From contig JAJYNO010000007.1 of the NCBI GenBank assembly GCA_021786295.1, positions 1 through 42,003 on the forward strand: DNA of 42,003 nt. The letters run 5' to 3'. Origin of the DNA: a bacterium. Its GTDB lineage: Bacteria; Elusimicrobiota; Elusimicrobia; Elusimicrobiales; UBA9959. A program made the translations under genes and the position numbers. Below are positions 1 to 12,836 of this stretch, piece by piece. Below the pieces are notes generated by a model. The model was not told where the DNA came from and did not search any database. It was given only the letters and a program-made list of their open reading frames with translations. Each line of letters begins with the position of its first letter. Positions within the stretch are counted from its first letter, which is position 1.

Positions 1-283
1 TGGCGCCGCTCATCGTCAGCGCGCCCGTCATCGTGTCGCCAGCCTTCAGCACCTTGCTGCTGTCGGTCGCAGTCACGTTGGTAAGACCTGAACCGTTACC
101 AAAGAACGTGCCGCTGGTCGTTATCGACGACCCGCTGATTATGTCGGCGTTGGCGCCGCTCATCGTCAGCGCGCCCGTCATCGTGTCGCCAGCCTTCAGC
201 ACCTTGCTGCTGTCGGTCGCAGTCACGTTCGTAAGACCTGAACCGTTGCCATAGAACGTGCCGCTGGTCGTTATCGATGACTG
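1..283 (-). repeat. Tandem 150-bp coding repeat
   Basis: Two nearly identical 150-bp units (1-150 and 151 to about 283) encode a 50-residue repeat in the surface protein. A third, partial copy lies at about 405-500. The period is a multiple of three, so copy-number changes keep the frame. Confidence 0.85.
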
Positions 284-1489
284 CGCAGTTATATAACTCG
301 CCGCGCCCGTCAAGCCAAGCGCGCCGGTCATCGTACCGCCAGTCAGCGGCAACTGCGCAACATTTGTCACATTCCCCAGGCCTACCTGCGACGCGCTCAT
401 CCCAGTAAGACCGGAACCGTTGCCGTAGAACGTGCCGCTGGTCGTTATCGACGATCCGCTGATTATGTCGGCGTTGGCGCCGCTCATCGTCAGCGAACCG
501 GTTATCGTGTTCGCCACGTTCGTGTATACGCCGTTCGTGACGCTGCCCGCGCTGGCAGCATTGTCCGCGTATATAGCGGAGGAAACCTTTACGTCGTTAA
601 GGTAATTACCGGTGAGTTGCGCGCTCAGCAAAGTACCACTGAGCTTGGAAGCCGACATCCCAGCGATCTTGGCGTCGGTGACGGCAGAGTTCTGGATGGC
701 GCCGGTGTACACCCCGTTTATGGCTATGGAAGAAGCTATGACCCCGGAACCCAGCGCGCCGGCCTGCACGCCGGCGGCGGTCACGTTGGTGGCGGTGATG
801 CCGGTAAGAGCGGAACCGTCGATGGCCGGCAACGCGCCGGTCAGCTTGGAGGCAGTGATGCCGGAAGCGATCTTGGCGTCGGTGACGGCGGAGTTCTGGA
901 TGGCGTCGGTGTACACCCCGTTTATGGCTATGGAAGAAGTTATGACCCCGGAACCCAGCGCGCCGGCCTGCACGCCGGCGGCGGTCACGTTGGTGGCGGT
1001 GATGCCGCTCAGGGAGGAGCCGTCGCCGTAGAATTTGGCGGCGCTCACATAGCCGGAAACGGCAACATAGGTGGAAATGACTACTCCCTGCCCGGCCACG
1101 CCGACGCTGGCGGCGCTGTCGGCGTAAATGGCGTAGGGGACGGAGAGCAACTGGGTGCGCGGGGACATTTCGGCGTCGGTGCCCACCTTGACTCCCAGAT
1201 AGCGGTTATCGGCGGAGAAGACGTCGGGGGTGAGCGGAGTGGAGGCGCCCAGCTTGACATTGAAGATGCCGTTGTCGGGGGTCACGCTCTGGGTTTCGCT
1301 CCAGAGCGTATTCCCGCCGGAGGCTGCGTCGTAGATTGTGAACGCCACGGAGTAGGTCCCGGTTAGAGGGTTCCCGTTGGAGTCGATAAGGCGCCCCTGG
1401 TAGTTTATGTAGGCCGGCGCGGCAGCGGCTACAGCCGGCAGCAGCAGCGCCCCTATCAGGATTCCTATCAGCGCTTTCAGCGTTTTCAT
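1..1489 (-). CDS. Secreted repeat-rich tail-fibre-like surface protein (3' end beyond left edge)
   Basis: The reading frame is open from an ATG at 1489 to the window edge (about 496 codons) and is preceded by a good GGAGG ribosome site at 1494-1498. Residues 1-24 form a signal peptide (MKTLKALIGILIGALLLPAV...). Residues about 27-125 match the N-terminal module common in large secreted proteins of uncultured bacteria: YINYQGRL, then GNPLTGTYSVAFTIYD, LWSE, and PRTQLLSVPYAIYADSA. The rest is low-complexity Gly/Ser/Thr/Ala sequence in tandem repeats with recurrent FYGNGSGLT and GDTMTGALTMSGA phrases, as in phage-tail-fibre-like and S74-peptidase adhesins. The C-terminal domain lies outside the window, so a self-cleaving S74 chaperone is only a guess. 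A sigma-54-type promoter lies 57 bp upstream, and a sigma-54/two-component operon is the next locus upstream on the same strand. No enzymatic function is claimed. Confidence 0.8.
   Translation of the reverse strand, partial: MKTLKALIGILIGALLLPAVAAAAPAYINYQGRLIDSNGNPLTGTYSVAFTIYDAASGGNTLWSETQSVTPDNGIFNVKLGASTPLTPDVFSADNRYLGVKVGTDAEMSPRTQLLSVPYAIYADSAASVGVAGQGVVISTYVAVSGYVSAAKFYGDGSSLSGITATNVTAAGVQAGALGSGVITSSIAINGVYTDAIQNSAVTDAKIASGITASKLTGALPAIDGSALTGITATNVTAAGVQAGALGSGVIASSIAINGVYTGAIQNSAVTDAKIAGMSASKLSGTLLSAQLTGNYLNDVKVSSAIYADNAASAGSVTNGVYTNVANTITGSLTMSGANADIISGSSITTSGTFYGNGSGLTGMSASQVGLGNVTNVAQLPLTGGTMTGALGLTGAASYITAQSSITTSGTFYGNGSGLTNVTATDSSKVLKAGDTMTGALTMSGANADIISGSSITTSGTFFGNGSGLTNVTATDSSKVLKAGDTMTGALTMSGA
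663..1024 (-). repeat. Tandem 204-bp coding repeat
   Basis: Two copies of a 204-bp unit begin at 663 and 867, giving 68 residues per unit; similarity fades after about 1024. Each unit encodes phrases such as ITATNVTAAGVQAGALGSGV and SSIAINGVYT. It lies in the same frame as the surface protein, upstream (in reading order) of the 150-bp repeats. Confidence 0.85.
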
Positions 1490-1545: not shown

Positions 1546-1561
1546 AGCAACGACTTTGCCA
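1546..1561 (-). promoter_or_regulatory. Sigma-54 (-24/-12) promoter of the repeat surface protein
   Basis: The minus strand reads TGGCAAAGTCGTTGCT. This matches the sigma-54 consensus TGGCAC-N5-TTGCW at the invariant GG and GC with exact spacing, and differs only at the C after TGGCA. Transcription would start near 1535, giving a 5' leader of about 46 nt before the RBS and ATG at 1489. The neighbouring operon encodes a sigma-54-like factor and an NtrC-type activator, which supports the reading. Confidence 0.7.
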
Positions 1562-1812: not shown

Positions 1813-3183
1813 TCACTCAAGCGAGTATTCTTTGATTTTGTTGTAAAGGGCCTTGCGGTCTATGGAAAGAAGTTTGGCCGCCCTCAGTTTGTTGCCGCCG
1901 GTTTTAGCGAGAGCTGCCGCTATAAGACGGCTTTCGGTCCTGGCCCTCGCCGCCTTAAGACTTTCTTTTAAGTTAAAACTCTCCACATCCGGAATTAAAG
2001 GCGCGGCAGCCCCCGCCGGGACCGAAGCGCCCAAAGCCAGATGGGCGGGCTGTATCTCCCCACCGCTCAGCAGGGCGGCGCGGATTATGGCGTTTCTGAG
2101 CTCCCTAACATTGCCGGGCCAGGCATAGGCCGTCAGCGCTGACATAGCCTGGTCAGAAATTCCGCTGATCTTCTTGTTTACCAGCTTTTCTGCTTCCCGC
2201 AGGAAAAAAGCGGCCAAGGTAGGGATATCTTCCCTGCGCTCGGCAAGGGCAGGCACCTGCAGGGCGAACTGGTTCAGGCGATGATAGAGGTCCTCGCGGA
2301 AAGAACCGTCGCGTATGCACCCGGCCAGGTCCTTGTTGGCCGCGGCTATCACCCGGGTATCGACCGGGATATCCTTCTTGCCGCCCAGATGCCGGATCTT
2401 CCGCTCCTCCAGCACGCGCAGGAGCTTCGCCTGGGTGCCGGGCGTCAGGTTGGCTATCTCGTCCAGGAACAGCGTGCCGCCGAAGGCTGCCTCGAAAAGA
2501 CCCTGCTTACGGCGGTCGGCCCCCGTAAAGGCGCCGCGCTCGTAGCCGAACAGTTCGCTCTCTACGAGGTTCTCCGGCAGCGCGCCGCAATCCAGCGCCA
2601 CGAACGGGCTGCCGGCGCGCTGGCTCAGGCGGTGTATCTCCCTGGCCCAGACCTCCTTGCCCGAACCCGACGGTCCTGAAAGTATAACGGTGAGGTCGGT
2701 GGAGGCCACCTGCCGCGCCAACTCGGCCACGCCTTTTATGGCGCGGCTCTCCCCGGTAACCGGCTCCTGCCCATGCGCGCTCTTAACATGGCTGCGCAGC
2801 GCGTCGAACTCGCGCTTCAGCCGGCGTTCCTTTACCGCCTTCTCTATTATCAGCAGCAGCTCCTCGTTGCCGAAAGGTTTCACCAGGTAATCCAGCGCGC
2901 CCAGCTTCATGGCGCGCACCGCGCTCTTTACGTCGGCGTGGCCGGTCAGGATGACGACAGGGAGGCCGGGGTCGTCGTTCTTGAGTTTCTCAAGCACGGC
3001 GAGGCCGTCCGAATCTCCCAGCAGCATGTCCAGCACAACGGCGTCGAAGGTCAGCGAATCGGCCAGGGAAAGCCCCTCTGCGGCGGAGGCCGCCGTCGCG
3101 CAGTTATGCCGCCCGGTCTCCAGCGCGGCCTTAAGGACATAGCGCGTGTCGGCGTCGTCCTCTACGATGAGTATGTTGCCCAT
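1813..3183 (-). CDS. NtrC-family sigma-54-dependent response regulator
   Basis: This is a three-domain bacterial enhancer-binding protein of 456 residues, normal for the family. The receiver domain (about 3-118) has the acidic pair in VEDDAD, phospho-acceptor D52 in VVLDML, and K102 in LVKPFG. The AAA+ domain (about 142-370) has Walker A GPSGSGKE (170-177), the sigma-54-contacting GAFTGA loop (217-222) and Walker B LFLDEI (238-243). A Fis-type helix-turn-helix follows at the C-terminus (about 410-452, ending KALYNKIKEYSLE). All residues needed for ATP-driven open-complex formation are present. It lies 37 bp after the histidine kinase on the same strand and is probably phosphorylated by it. 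It is the third gene of the operon headed by a sigma-54-like protein, so it probably activates that factor or the housekeeping RpoN. Confidence 0.95.
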   Translation of the reverse strand: MGNILIVEDDADTRYVLKAALETGRHNCATAASAAEGLSLADSLTFDAVVLDMLLGDSDGLAVLEKLKNDDPGLPVVILTGHADVKSAVRAMKLGALDYLVKPFGNEELLLIIEKAVKERRLKREFDALRSHVKSAHGQEPVTGESRAIKGVAELARQVASTDLTVILSGPSGSGKEVWAREIHRLSQRAGSPFVALDCGALPENLVESELFGYERGAFTGADRRKQGLFEAAFGGTLFLDEIANLTPGTQAKLLRVLEERKIRHLGGKKDIPVDTRVIAAANKDLAGCIRDGSFREDLYHRLNQFALQVPALAERREDIPTLAAFFLREAEKLVNKKISGISDQAMSALTAYAWPGNVRELRNAIIRAALLSGGEIQPAHLALGASVPAGAAAPLIPDVESFNLKESLKAARARTESRLIAAALAKTGGNKLRAAKLLSIDRKALYNKIKEYSLE

Positions 3184-3220
3184 GTCCGATGAATTATCGC
3201 CACGCCGCCGGCGCCACGGA

Positions 3221-4333
3221 TCAGACTATCTTTCGGAAACGAAGACTGACCACCGCGCCGCCCTCCGGCGAGGCCGACACCAGTATGCGCCCGCCGTGCT
3301 CGTCCATTATCTGCCGCGCCAGGTACAGCCCCAGGCCGGTTCCGTTCTCCTTGGTCGTGAAGAACGGCTGGAACAGGCTCTCCATCATCGCCGGCTCCAG
3401 GCCGGGACCGTTGTCGGCTACGGTCAGGAAGACCTCTTTTTCCGCCTCCAGCCACCCCGAGGAGACAGTCACCCTCCCGTCGGGTACGCCGTCCAGGGCC
3501 TGCAGAGAATTATTGAGGATATTGTAGATCACGCTGTGCATGTAATGCGGGTCAAGGAAGACCTTTGGCGCCTTCTCGAACGTCTTCTCGACCTTGACCT
3601 TGGCGGCCTTCACCGCGCTGTCTATGAGCTCCAGCGCCCTTTCGGTGGCTGTTTCCACCGGGTAGGGTTCCAGCCGGCACATGCCGCTGCGGGAGAAATC
3701 CAGCAGCGTCCTGACTATGTCCGAGGCGCGGCGGGCGTTGCGCTCTATCAGTTCGGCGCCGGAGCGCACGGCCTCTGGCTGCCCGTCCTGCGCGCGTAGC
3801 AGTTCCGAGGTGGAGAGTATCACGTGGAGCGGGTTCTTGATGTCGTGCGCGAACATAGAAGTAAGCTGGCCCATGGAGGTGAGACGGTTCAGCTTGCGGG
3901 CAGCGTTCTTGAAGACGTGCGGGTCCTTAAGCGCGGACCATTCGTCGGGTGAGACCTGCGACAGGAAGAGGCAGAAGCCGTTCGCTCCGCCGTCGCCCCC
4001 TCTAAGCGCCTGCACGGTAAGGTACAGGCGCACTATGCTGCGCGAGGGCGTCAGCATATAGAAACGGTAGTTGCGCACCACGCCGTTCTTGGCCGCCAGT
4101 TCGGTGAGTTCCTTGAAATCCTTGAGGTCCTTTTCCAGGACCAGTTCCGAGGCCGGCTTGCCCTTTATGTCCCGGCTTTCCCAACCGAGGAGTTTCAGCG
4201 CGCTATTGTTGACCACCAGCACGTTGAGGGAGCGGTCCAGCGCCAGCATGGGCTCCTGCGCTCTGAAAAAGACGGCGTCGAAGAGGCTCCGGTAGACCGG
4301 ATGCTCCGCGCCCTCTTCTTTCCTGACTGTCAT
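3221..4333 (-). CDS. Soluble PAS-domain sensor histidine kinase
   Basis: The 370-residue protein has no transmembrane segment, so it should sense a cytoplasmic signal. A PAS-like domain covers about residues 15-125. The HisKA dimerisation helix carries the phospho-accepting H163 in FAHDIKNPLH. The HATPase_c domain shows an N-box (YNILNNSLQAL), a G1 box (VADNGPGL) and a G2 box (GTGLGLYLA). Its ATG overlaps the stop of the upstream sigma-54-like gene (ATGA at 4330-4333), which implies translational coupling, and the response regulator follows. The order sigma factor, kinase, regulator is unusual, because rpoN is normally not operonic with its activator. The signal is unknown. Confidence 0.93.
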   Translation of the reverse strand: MTVRKEEGAEHPVYRSLFDAVFFRAQEPMLALDRSLNVLVVNNSALKLLGWESRDIKGKPASELVLEKDLKDFKELTELAAKNGVVRNYRFYMLTPSRSIVRLYLTVQALRGGDGGANGFCLFLSQVSPDEWSALKDPHVFKNAARKLNRLTSMGQLTSMFAHDIKNPLHVILSTSELLRAQDGQPEAVRSGAELIERNARRASDIVRTLLDFSRSGMCRLEPYPVETATERALELIDSAVKAAKVKVEKTFEKAPKVFLDPHYMHSVIYNILNNSLQALDGVPDGRVTVSSGWLEAEKEVFLTVADNGPGLEPAMMESLFQPFFTTKENGTGLGLYLARQIMDEHGGRILVSASPEGGAVVSLRFRKIV

Positions 4334-5373
4334 AACCCGGCCCTGTAGAGATTAACGCTGCGCCTTGAAACACGCAGGCCGCAGTCCTTTCTAAGAGCCT
4401 CGGATATCTCCCTGTCGGTAATTTTAGCGCTCCCCGCCCCCGTCATGGTTTTTATTTTATCAATTATAAAGGCTTTCTTCGTGAGAAAAAGATCTTTCAT
4501 TCTTATTTCCTCGCCCCACGGAGCCTCCACAGACCGGGAGGAAACCAGCCTCGAGACCGTGGCCGGGTCTAGACCGGTCAGGGCGGCCAGGTCCCGCTGC
4601 GTCAGCGGTTTCAGGCCGGAACGCCCCGACAGAAAGCCCTCCTGCGCCCGGATGAGCGCCTCAAGAACCCGGTGGAACCCGGCCTTTCGCCACGAGAGGC
4701 GCTGGGCCCGGGCCAGCAGGGAATAGGCCCGCCGGGCCTCGTCGGTGGTAAAAGCGCCGCTGCGCACCAGCCGCGAAAGGGCGCTCCTGTCCATAAAGTA
4801 GGCACCGCGGAAGTAGGACGGGTGGGTATACGCGGCGAAAAGGGAACCGCCGTCGCGGACGATGACCGCGGAAAGCCTGAAATAAAGCCGCGGCAGCGAA
4901 GCCGCCGGGACGCGTTCATGCGCCAAAATGAACGAGTCCGTGAAGGCCCTAAGAGCGGAGACCTCCTCCCCGGTAAATCCGCAGGCTTTGGCGGCGGCCT
5001 TCGGGTCAAGCGAGGAGGAAAGGAAGTACTTCTCGAAATTGCCCGCCCCTGCGCGGCGCGCGAGTTCCAGCATGGCCGGTCTGGCGGACAGCCATTCTCC
5101 GGCCCCGGACCTTTCGGCGGCCGAGGCCAGCCCGTCGTCGGCGCAGGCGCGGAAGAAGGCGTAGGCGGCTCCGGGCAGACGCCTTCGCACGACGGGGGCC
5201 GAGCCGTCCTCGCCGGGAGAGCAGAGCCTGGAGAAGAGAGGATCCGCCAGCAGCTCCGCCTCCTGCTCGAGGAAGTCCTTCTCGGGAGACGACAGCACCG
5301 TGAAGAGCCGCAGGTCCTGACGCTGGACCTGTTCCCCGGAGAGCTGAAGCGACTGTTTTTTCCGTTCTTTCAT
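4330..5373 (-). CDS. Compact, divergent sigma-54 (RpoN)-like factor
   Basis: The 347-residue protein is much shorter than typical RpoN (about 430-490). The C-terminal half aligns by eye with sigma-54. It shows the core/DNA-binding stretch HRVLEALIRAQEGFLSG, a helix-turn-helix LTQRDLAALTGLDPATVSRL (257-276) matching the RpoN LxDIAxxxxxHESTxSR motif, then APWG and MKDLF like PRGxFELKYFF. It ends in SRRSVNLYRA (336-345), a variant of the RpoN box ARRTVAKYRE. The N-terminus (SLQLSGEQVQRQDLRLFTVL, 8-27) resembles activator-contacting region I but is poor in the usual Gln/Leu pattern. The acidic linker is mostly missing and the core-binding region is diverged. It heads an operon with a kinase and an NtrC-type activator. 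I infer a dedicated alternative sigma-54 paralogue; an anti-sigma or competitor role cannot be excluded. Confidence 0.85.
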   Translation of the reverse strand: MKERKKQSLQLSGEQVQRQDLRLFTVLSSPEKDFLEQEAELLADPLFSRLCSPGEDGSAPVVRRRLPGAAYAFFRACADDGLASAAERSGAGEWLSARPAMLELARRAGAGNFEKYFLSSSLDPKAAAKACGFTGEEVSALRAFTDSFILAHERVPAASLPRLYFRLSAVIVRDGGSLFAAYTHPSYFRGAYFMDRSALSRLVRSGAFTTDEARRAYSLLARAQRLSWRKAGFHRVLEALIRAQEGFLSGRSGLKPLTQRDLAALTGLDPATVSRLVSSRSVEAPWGEEIRMKDLFLTKKAFIIDKIKTMTGAGSAKITDREISEALRKDCGLRVSRRSVNLYRAGL

Positions 5374-10928: not shown

Positions 10929-11057
10929 GCGGCCCGTGGACTGAGGGGCCGGCGCGACTTTGGGGAAGGGGGACCCGCCATAATTTCCCCTGGCGGGGGG
11001 AACCGCGCAACGGTTCCCCTCTGCCCAGGAGCGCAGGTCCCTCAGCCCACGGGCTGC
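10929..11057. other. Highly structured intergenic palindromic element A (possible RNA or MITE-like repeat)
   Basis: Between clpB and tmk a 19-bp near-perfect closing stem (10929-10947 with 11039-11057) encloses two perfect internal hairpins. These are CCCGCCA...TGGCGGG (10974-10996) and GGGGAACCG-CGCAA-CGGTTCCCC (about 10997-11019). A further GGGCATAGCCC palindrome follows near 11089. It shares the GGGGAACCG/CGGTTCCC and GGGC-AT-GCCC-type blocks with the element at 32563-32733, so both may belong to one dispersed family. No ORF, and no 6S, SRP, tmRNA or RNase P signature was recognised. The transcribed strand is unknown. Confidence 0.6.
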
Positions 11058-11111
11058 GGCGAGAAGTGAGAGACCTCGGGCATAGCCCGCCGCCCCCGGG
11101 CTTTGCTATCA

Positions 11112-11117
11112 TATACT
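11112..11117 (+). promoter_or_regulatory. Candidate -10 of tmk, implying a leaderless transcript
   Basis: TATACT ends 7 bp before the tmk ATG, so transcription would begin at or next to the start codon. No RBS is visible and no good -35 is seen in the GC-rich upstream sequence. Confidence 0.4.
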
Positions 11118-11124
11118 TTCACCC

Positions 11125-11742
11125 ATGAAAAAAGGCGTATTCATAGTACTGGAAGGCCCGGACCGCTCCGGCAAGTCCACCCAGGCCGCCCTCCTCAGGA
11201 AGTGGCTAGAAGAGCGCGGCCGCGAAGTGCTCGTCACGCGCGAACCCGGCGGCACTTACCTCTCCGAGAAGATCCGCAAGATACTCCTGGACCCGAAGAG
11301 CAACATCGAGCCCATGACAGAGCTCTTCCTGTACGAGACGTCCCGCGTCAAGCACACCCTGGAGAAGATAATCCCCGCGCTCAAGGCCGGAAAGGTCATC
11401 ATCTCCGACCGCTACACCCTTTCCACCACCGCCTACCAGGGCTACGGCCGCGGTCTGGACCTGAAGACTGTGGAGACGCTCAACCGCATAGCCACGCTGG
11501 ACCTGAAGCCAGACCTGACGATAGTGTTCGATATGCCGGACAGGATCTTCTCACAGCGCGAGCGCCTGAGAAGCGGCAGGGACCGCATCGAGCGGGCTCC
11601 CGACGCCTTCCGCCGGCGCGTGAACCGCGCCTACAAGCGGCTGGCCCGCCGCCCCGGAGTTGCGAGAGTCGACGCAGGCCGCTCCATAGACGAGATCCAG
11701 GCCGAAGTGAGGGCCCTGGCTGCGAAGGCGCTGCGGGGATAA
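11125..11742 (+). CDS. tmk: Thymidylate kinase
   Basis: This enzyme phosphorylates dTMP to dTDP with ATP in the dTTP pathway. The 205-residue length is typical. The P-loop GPDRSGKS is at 11-18; the substrate motif TREPGGTYLSEKIR and the ISDRY nucleoside-binding motif follow. The lid region is Arg-rich (FSQRERLRSGRDRIERAP). It is first in the tmk-holB-metG operon: holB starts 2 bp after its stop. The tmk-holB pairing is common in bacteria. No Shine-Dalgarno sequence is seen, which agrees with a -10 box directly upstream. Confidence 0.96.
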   Translation: MKKGVFIVLEGPDRSGKSTQAALLRKWLEERGREVLVTREPGGTYLSEKIRKILLDPKSNIEPMTELFLYETSRVKHTLEKIIPALKAGKVIISDRYTLSTTAYQGYGRGLDLKTVETLNRIATLDLKPDLTIVFDMPDRIFSQRERLRSGRDRIERAPDAFRRRVNRAYKRLARRPGVARVDAGRSIDEIQAEVRALAAKALRG

Positions 11743-11744
11743 TC

Positions 11745-12836
11745 ATGTCTTTCTCCTCCGTGCTAGGGCAGGACAGGGCGATAAAGCGCTTGCGGGCGCT
11801 TATAACCACTGGCCGCGTGCCGCCGGCGATGATCTTCCACGGGCCGCCCGGCACGGGGAAGTTCCTGGCGGCCCTAGAGTTCGCCAAGGCTCTGAACTGC
11901 TCGCACACCATCCACCGGGAGAAGCCGCCGGCGCCGCAGCAGCCAGATCCGGACGATCTTTTCGCGGCATCGGTCCCCGCCAGTGCGCCGCCCCCGGAGC
12001 CGGAGCCGCGCCCCGGGACGGAGGAGGAGCACGCCGACAGGTCGGACTCCTGCGGCAAATGTCTTTCCTGCCTCCAGGCCGCCAGCGGCGCGCACCCGGA
12101 TATCCGCGTGGTGGACACCGCCATGCAGGCCGCCCTGCTGGACGAGGACGAGAGCTCCAATCTGAAGATCGACACGCTGCGCGAGATGACGCGCTGGGCG
12201 CAGCAGAAGGCCATGCTCTCTCCCTGGAAGGTCTTCATCGTGCGCGACGCCCAAGCCATGGTGACCGCCGCCCAGAACGCCATTCTCAAGACCCTGGAAG
12301 AGCCGCCGCCCGGCACCATAGTCATACTTACCGTCTCGCGCAAGACCTCGCTGCTGTCCACTATACTCTCCCGCTCCTGCCTTATCGAGTTCTCCCCTCT
12401 GCCCCGTGCCGCGCTGGAAAAGGTGCTGGCCGCTCAGGGGGCCGGGCCGGAGCAGGCCGCCGCCATTGCGGCGCTGGGAGCCGGCTCGCTGGAGAAAGCG
12501 GCAGAGGCCTCGGCCTTCCTCAAGCGCGTCTCCGCGCTGCGCCCCGGAGACCCGGCGCGCGCTTTCAAGTTCGCCGCGGGCCTGCCGCGCGACAGCCACA
12601 AGGCCCGCGACGAGGTGAAGACGCTGCTTGACCTCGTGCTCGCCAGGGCGCGGGCAGCCTGGGAGGCCGCCGAAGGCCAGTCCAAGGCCCGCCTTACCGT
12701 CCTGCTGCGCCGGACGCTCGGGCTGCGTGCGATGGCGGAGCGCAATGTCTCCTACCTGCTGCTGCTGGAAACTGCTCTGCTGGAAAGCGAACGCGCCGGG
12801 ATAAAGCTCGAGGACCTGCTGCGCCCGGAACGATGA
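11745..12836 (+). CDS. holB: DNA polymerase III clamp-loader subunit (delta'-like)
   Basis: This clamp-loader AAA+ protein has 363 residues from ATG 11745. The Walker A is GPPGTGKF (33-40), with Phe where Ser/Thr would bind magnesium, which fits a catalytically silent delta' subunit. The zinc module typical of gamma/delta' is present as C52 and C103-GKC106-LSC109, but an insert of about 50 Pro/Glu/Asp-rich residues (53-102) separates the first Cys from the other three. TLEEPPPGTIVILT and the sensor-1-like ILSRSC are conserved. It lies in tmk-holB-metG; its TGA overlaps the metG ATG. dnaX-type identity is less likely because of the degenerate Walker A and the context. Confidence 0.9.
   Translation: MSFSSVLGQDRAIKRLRALITTGRVPPAMIFHGPPGTGKFLAALEFAKALNCSHTIHREKPPAPQQPDPDDLFAASVPASAPPPEPEPRPGTEEEHADRSDSCGKCLSCLQAASGAHPDIRVVDTAMQAALLDEDESSNLKIDTLREMTRWAQQKAMLSPWKVFIVRDAQAMVTAAQNAILKTLEEPPPGTIVILTVSRKTSLLSTILSRSCLIEFSPLPRAALEKVLAAQGAGPEQAAAIAALGAGSLEKAAEASAFLKRVSALRPGDPARAFKFAAGLPRDSHKARDEVKTLLDLVLARARAAWEAAEGQSKARLTVLLRRTLGLRAMAERNVSYLLLLETALLESERAGIKLEDLLRPER

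Follow-up and report, generated by a model that had tools for sequence, protein, structure and literature searches.

A compact sigma-54 encoded with a kinase and an activator in Elusimicrobiota: a predicted self-contained circuit

The four sigma-54 proteins of Cereibacter (Rhodobacter) sphaeroides, RpoN1 to RpoN4, are full length. As described in PMC11999139, each copy that has been studied is paired with its own activator and targets, the activators being NifA, FleQ and AprX, and the promoters of RpoN1 and RpoN2 are distinguished at position -11. In the holoenzyme described in PMC7057263, the channels for DNA and RNA are occupied by region II and the RNA exit is blocked by the core-binding domain (CBD), an arrangement that helps to keep the sigma-54 polymerase from becoming active before an activator acts on it. 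Here we analyse a contig of 42,003 nucleotides (the window; JAJYNO010000007.1 of assembly GCA_021786295.1) from an uncultured Elusimicrobiota bacterium of the lineage UBA9959, in which positions 1813 to 5373 hold genes for a compact sigma-54 (paralogue A, or sigma-54A), a kinase and an activator. We consider it probable, at roughly three chances in four, that these genes form a self-contained sigma-54 circuit together with the palindromes, the promoter and the gene for a secreted target that lie behind them.

The three genes follow one another on the reverse strand. The first (4330..5373) encodes a 347-residue protein with a Sigma54_DBD match, and its stop codon (4330-4332) overlaps the start codon of the second (3221..4333, 370 residues) in an ATGA that is read directly in the window. 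The second gene specifies a sensor histidine kinase with PAS, HisKA and HATPase_c domains in Pfam; as its most hydrophobic 19-residue stretch has a mean of only 0.81, it is fairly labelled soluble. The product of the third (1813..3183, 456 residues) has the Response_reg, Sigma54_activat (E = 4.5e-65) and HTH_8 domains of Pfam and an intact GAFTGA at residue 217, and thus the receiver, the AAA+ domain with GAFTGA and the Fis-type helix-turn-helix (HTH) of an NtrC-type enhancer-binding response regulator. An earlier note, made from the sequence of the window alone, had described these features, namely a sigma-54-like HTH with a variant RpoN box at the very end of the protein, ATGA coupling to a soluble PAS kinase and an activator with an intact GAFTGA loop, and each was borne out.

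The C-terminal part of sigma-54A is readily recognised. Residues 224-345 match Sigma54_DBD with 57 bits against a cut-off of 22.8 (E = 2.4e-15), and the RpoN box reads SRRSVNLYR, the canonical box being ARRTVAKYR. The top match in a profile search of the PDB was RpoN of Aquifex (5ui5_I, 8.1e-24, residues 167-347). An AlphaFold2 model made from 25 sequences has a predicted local distance difference test score of 86.8 and a predicted template modelling score of 0.83, with residues 1-18 under 50 and helices near the N-terminus at 21-28 and 31-43, and its top 26 matches in Foldseek are without exception chains of sigma-54, the best with E = 4.6e-8. The overall fold of sigma-54 and a DNA-binding domain (DBD) with HTH and RpoN box are both found in the protein. 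On the rpoN_sigma equivalog model TIGR02395 it scores 58.1 bits, below the cut-off of 277.35. A single-sequence tblastn search of a plasmid collection with the sigma protein returned seven records, all partial, and the matches to canonical genes started at residue 126 at the earliest.

The N-terminal part required broader profiles, since a profile of A alone matched the single canonical protein of the phylum (locus L087, see below) in the DNA-binding part only. We therefore used a profile of compact proteins built from 74 rows, or 73 distinct proteins with that of the window present twice, of which 62 remained after the program's filter; loci L094, L097, L099, L102 and L109 were excluded, as were the canonical and Margulisbacteria rows. 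This profile aligned over its whole length with nine canonical or Margulisbacteria proteins (E = 9e-31). Taken piecewise, residues 1-60 matched region I (E = 0.0018; reversed control 0.34) and residues 108-225 the second half of the CBD (E = 0.0007; reversed 0.49), the reversed-profile controls of the matching pieces lying at 0.34-0.57, and residues 52-110 matched nothing (0.54; reversed 0.46). Judged by these comparisons, the compact sigma-54s appear to retain a diverged and weakly recognisable region I, along with the second CBD half, the HTH and the RpoN box; nothing that corresponds to region II or to the first CBD half was found in them. The sigma-54 of the window is thus minimised, as had been proposed, and the reduction of its core-binding part holds and extends to region II; region I, which had been thought reduced as well, is diverged but weakly recognisable. 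In one further locus, L108, residues 113-140 of the retained CBD half match HTH_24 (3.7e-8) and, below cut-off, Sigma70_r4 (3.9e-5).

The compact form is not an addition to an ordinary one, as far as the genomes allow this to be seen. Sigma54_DBD is found at two places in the genome of the window (2.30 Mb), the window itself, which is one whole contig (C5), and contig C1, where the encoded protein, paralogue B, is with 353 residues as compact as A. There was no match to Sigma54_CBD at E <= 10 in this 79%-complete assembly, and a full-length rpoN in addition to the compact copies was found neither there nor in the 37 genomes of the family that were searched for the DBD. The supposition of the earlier note that A is a paralogue standing beside a normal rpoN was thus not upheld, a DBD having been found only in A and B in the searched assembly. 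Among 61 genomes, the DBD was matched in 33 of 37 from the family and in none of 24 from a sister family; the absence from the latter agrees with Francke et al. (2011), where Elusimicrobium minutum is counted among the species without sigma-54 and its activators (PMC3162934). The open reading frames (ORFs) of 56 family loci, comprising the window and 55 other stretches and leaving out a contig-edge fragment (G001:C63), are 335-453 residues long.

The same picture extends to the phylum. In a sample of 294 genomes, the DBD was matched in 115 (113 above cut-off) and the CBD above cut-off in a single one (G107), with two more sub-threshold matches (E <= 0.01), so that 114 of the 115 DBD-bearing genomes have no CBD above cut-off. 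The locus in G107, L087, has AID, CBD and DBD and is possibly acquired, possibly ancestral. At the 22 non-canonical loci of this sample, the ORFs are 341-396 residues long in 17 and 442-642 in five, with start codons unchecked and two of the five long ORFs running off the contig. A tree of 42 proteins split 39 compact Elusimicrobiota proteins from the canonical one of G107 and two of Margulisbacteria (99/99) and placed A and B in separate clades; the rows were hand-picked (8 of 28 A, 6 of 25 B), L094, L099 and L102 were trimmed to their last 400 residues, and long branches and an uneven letter make-up were warned of. Three more compact sigma-54s (L058, L083 and L042) fall outside clades A and B, the first two of them adjoining a kinase and an activator. 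Sigma-54 genes of about 370 codons on contigs of Candidatus Marinamargulisbacteria and Candidatus Termititenax (L173:219-2700 and L174:3933-6372) have a CBD above cut-off, and their starts overlap an upstream NtrC-type activator-like gene, making another sigma-activator pair. A literature search, with subscription journals mostly outside its coverage, found no description of a compact sigma-54 in Elusimicrobiota.

These results bear on whether the compact protein is a sigma factor at all, or a remnant of sigma-54 that binds DNA and acts at -24/-12 sites as a competitor or a marker. The latter would fit with the unmatched Pfam core-binding domain of sigma-54A and with region II and half of the CBD having no counterpart. 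Several of our own results weigh against the proposed circuit: neither Sigma54_AID nor Sigma54_CBD matched sigma-54A at E <= 1, the matches to region I and to half of the CBD are weak when taken alone (E about 0.001), and the query template modelling scores in Foldseek are low (0.27-0.38), perhaps through domain movement. However, with the CBD missing above cut-off from nearly all DBD-bearing genomes, no full-length competitor is seen; the activators have GAFTGA intact and in most cases occur where the sigma genes do, and a protein that merely bound DNA would hardly need a region I, which is weakly recognisable here. We therefore regard a remnant as very unlikely and predict that sigma-54A binds core polymerase and depends on an activator.

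The genes of the operon have stayed together. A kinase gene follows that of the sigma factor in all 28 A loci, overlapping it by 4 nt in 20 of them, and the activator gene comes next in all 26 loci that reach far enough, the other two stopping at a contig edge before it; this arrangement is not one of chance, and the comparative linkage supports the dedicated kinase and activator that the earlier note had proposed from the window. Sigma B is linked to a different activator, with which it lies head to head in 23 of 24 testable loci (hand count); of the 25 B loci in all, L064 is cut by a contig edge and L085 is the exception without an activator. In 18 of 23 family genomes (hand count, leaving out the contig-edge fragment of G001), there are as many strong activators (PF00158, E < 1e-50) as sigma-54 genes, and no strong activator was found in the 14 genomes examined from the sister family, which is without sigma-54 in 24/24. 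When about 1.5 kb was read on either side at the 22 non-canonical phylum loci, nine had an activator-like gene, or a fragment of one (>60 bits), close to the sigma gene and a further three a kinase-like gene (>80 bits); the canonical L087 has neither. We predict an exclusive pairing of each sigma factor with its own activator.

Behind the activator gene of the window lies a predicted A-type -24/-12 promoter (1546..1561, reverse strand, TGGCAAAGTCGTTGCT), the sole A-type site found in the assembled genome. Sites were sought in the 600 nt behind each activator with a sigma-54 consensus matrix, which favours C after TGGCA. The best site nonetheless reads TGGCAA at 24 of the 26 A loci; 18 of these sites score more than 14 bits and have an AAAGT-like core in the spacer, and TGGCAA-N5-TTGC is present behind the activator in 25 of 26; the same scan gave TGGCAT or TGGCAC upstream of most sigma-B genes. 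Locus L073 has no A site, and in L047 it lies farther away, beyond a gene inserted between activator and target (about 11047-11865) that we take to be transposase-like; there the A-type promoter has remained with the target despite the insertion. A loose pattern, TGGCA-N6-TTGCW, gives six sites in the genome of the window (the A-type site and five of B type) against three for the reversed pattern. It was rejected as a marker, with similar numbers in sister-family genomes and no separation by the presence of sigma-54, and narrower A and B patterns were used for this reason. Over all 61 genomes, the strict A pattern has one site each in 23 of the 28 A-bearing family genomes, none in the nine without A and none in its reversed control; the strict B pattern has 117 sites, 115 of them in the family, against four reversed. 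Of sites before the 25 sigma-B genes, 23 were found, all with T or C after TGGCA (TGGCAY). Sites of the -24/-12 type are thus linked to the sigma-54A gene, and A and B are each predicted to have their own variant, TGGCAA and TGGCAY. With one mismatch allowed, the A pattern occurs exactly once in 20 of 32 genomes of the genus, never more, and is missing from 12. Of the promoter set that had been envisaged for A, the distinct promoter type therefore stands and the set does not, there being at most one A site per genus genome, adjoining the operon. Upstream of the A operon itself, no sigma-54 site in the window scored well (best 1.5).

Between activator and promoter, directly after the stop codon of the activator gene, are three tandem palindromes TGTRG-N8-CYACA, each with at most one mismatch (1751-1768, 1770-1787 and 1794-1811), whose centres are mostly 19 and 23-25 nt apart among the A loci. 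At least two copies (at most one mismatch) are present in 22 of 25 A loci and in none of 1250 shuffled sequences, the search covering only about 300 nt before each site and hence cutting the longer gaps of L041, L061, L072 and L047. Of the strict form TGTRGA-N6-TCYACA, the 61 genomes contain 64 instances, 48 of which belong to A loci; the reversed form has 25. In the 24 loci with a palindrome, the nearest lies 95-97 bp before the -24 element in seven and 196-201 bp in eight. A different palindrome, ATTTTCA-N2-TGAAAAT (at most three mismatches), lies within 250 nt of 39 of 57 B sites, the same sites from which it was found, against 46 of 1056 random windows. The two palindromes are candidate binding sites of the respective activators, those of the window forming a candidate enhancer. 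A CCTATAAT-like element at about 1680-1720 of the window, perhaps belonging to a leader or to a promoter of the sigma-70 type, recurs between palindromes and -24/-12 site: its 8-mer ATTATAGG is found, in one orientation or the other, at 12 of the 25 A loci. Rfam at its gathering threshold gave only a tRNA in the window and five loci, so that none of these six sources showed a known leader RNA in the stretch from palindromes to promoter.

The likely target in the window (2..1489, reverse strand) is a secreted repeat protein with a signal-peptide-like start and an NYQGR motif, its ORF being cut by the contig end; in Pfam it matches only the short repeat family Chlorovi_GP_rpt. An ORF with NYQGR, and a signal-peptide-like start as judged by eye, lies downstream of the A promoter in 24 of 26 A loci, the exceptions being L041, which stops too early, and L073, without site and target. 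Sigma-54A appears to have one adjacent gene, encoding a secreted protein, as its single target. Judged by hydrophobicity with a simple rule, the ORF after a B site is signal-peptide-like in 22 of 34 cases, compared with 92 of 1160 random positions, and several other B sites lie before sigma B itself.

Not all counts favour separate circuits, and the following weigh against them. Activator and sigma numbers differ by one in five of the 23 genomes (G003, G004, G014, G020 and G022). The site patterns and palindromes of A and B were derived from the loci on which they were counted, and the A after TGGCA in 25/25 companion A sites is that of sites selected by TGGCAA. The association of A site with A gene (Fisher, 1.6e-5) ignores shared descent, and the strict A pattern has eight sites in six sister-family genomes without sigma-54. 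The 20 genus genomes with one A site comprise 19 of the 24 that bear A and also G003, with an A-like site and no A gene. Five A-bearing genomes have no strict A site: G001, G029 and G033 have variants with one or two bases changed, the locus of G004 ends at a contig edge, and G027 has neither site nor target. B sites occur in four genomes without a detected B gene, two genomes have a B gene and no B sites, and only three of the five strict B sites in the genome of the window precede a signal-peptide-like ORF.

The protein could also be taken for a plain, fast-evolving rpoN, its linkage and promoter variants being drift and A and B sharing activators and promoters freely. The long branches of the tree agree with this, as does the TGGCA-N6-TTGC, or a close form of it, that is common to A and B sites. 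Yet A and B form separate clades, the base after TGGCA differs between them, as do their palindromes, and they are linked to different activators. We consider drift of this kind unlikely and prefer a self-contained circuit, of which the anatomy, conservation, gene linkage and promoter and palindrome variants can be read from the sequences themselves.

According to this circuit model, the soluble PAS kinase would sense a cytoplasmic signal and phosphorylate the NtrC-type regulator in a predicted phosphorelay. The regulator would bind the three tandem palindromes directly behind its own gene, acting as an enhancer, and its GAFTGA loop would remodel RNA polymerase carrying sigma-54A at the A-type promoter, about 200-240 bp from the palindromes, so that expression of the secreted repeat protein is switched on. 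Paralogue B may run a parallel circuit with a different activator, palindrome and promoter variant, its targets being predicted from the site before its own gene and those before a few unlinked genes, many of them for small secreted proteins. It is somewhat more probable than the contrary that the Elusimicrobiota have swapped canonical rpoN for miniature, activator-dependent sigma-54s that lack region II and the first CBD half, each insulated by an activator, an enhancer and a promoter variant of its own, down to a one-gene regulon, and that these are natural orthogonal circuits.

Several consequences would follow. Given the places that region II and the CBD are described as taking in the channels and at the RNA exit (PMC7057263), the parts that are missing here are relevant to the way in which the polymerase is silenced; with a naturally occurring sigma-54 that has no region II and only half of the CBD, it becomes testable which plugs silence and activation need. 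The A and B sets are a naturally occurring example of what may be insulation between activator, sigma factor and promoter. The secreted targets fit the proposal, made in PMC3162934, that the cell exterior is the domain of control of sigma-54. Annotation that requires a CBD match would overlook sigma-54 in 114 of the 115 DBD-bearing genomes of the phylum sample.

Compared with canonical RpoN (PF00309, PF04963 and PF04552; TIGR02395), the compact proteins share the HTH, the RpoN box and the long helix before the HTH, together with -24/-12 sites, GAFTGA activators and a weakly recognisable, diverged region I; they differ in their compact form, with nothing found that corresponds to region II or the first CBD half, and in scoring 58 against 277 bits. 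The kinase and activator resemble AtoS and AtoC in scoring highest against NCBIfam models of that type, but with 189 against 646 and 403 against 714 bits they lie far under the equivalog cut-offs, and the operon here includes a sigma factor. The closest likeness is to C. sphaeroides, which also has multiple sigma-54 paralogues with their own activators and targets. There, as described, four copies occur in one proteobacterium, whereas here compact forms without a recognisable CBD are found across the phylum sample, the distinguishing base follows TGGCA, and sigma factor, kinase, activator, palindromes, promoter and target make up one block. One activator for each studied sigma-54 copy is already known from C. 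sphaeroides, and the compact A and B circuits would thus vary a known theme and not be new in kind.

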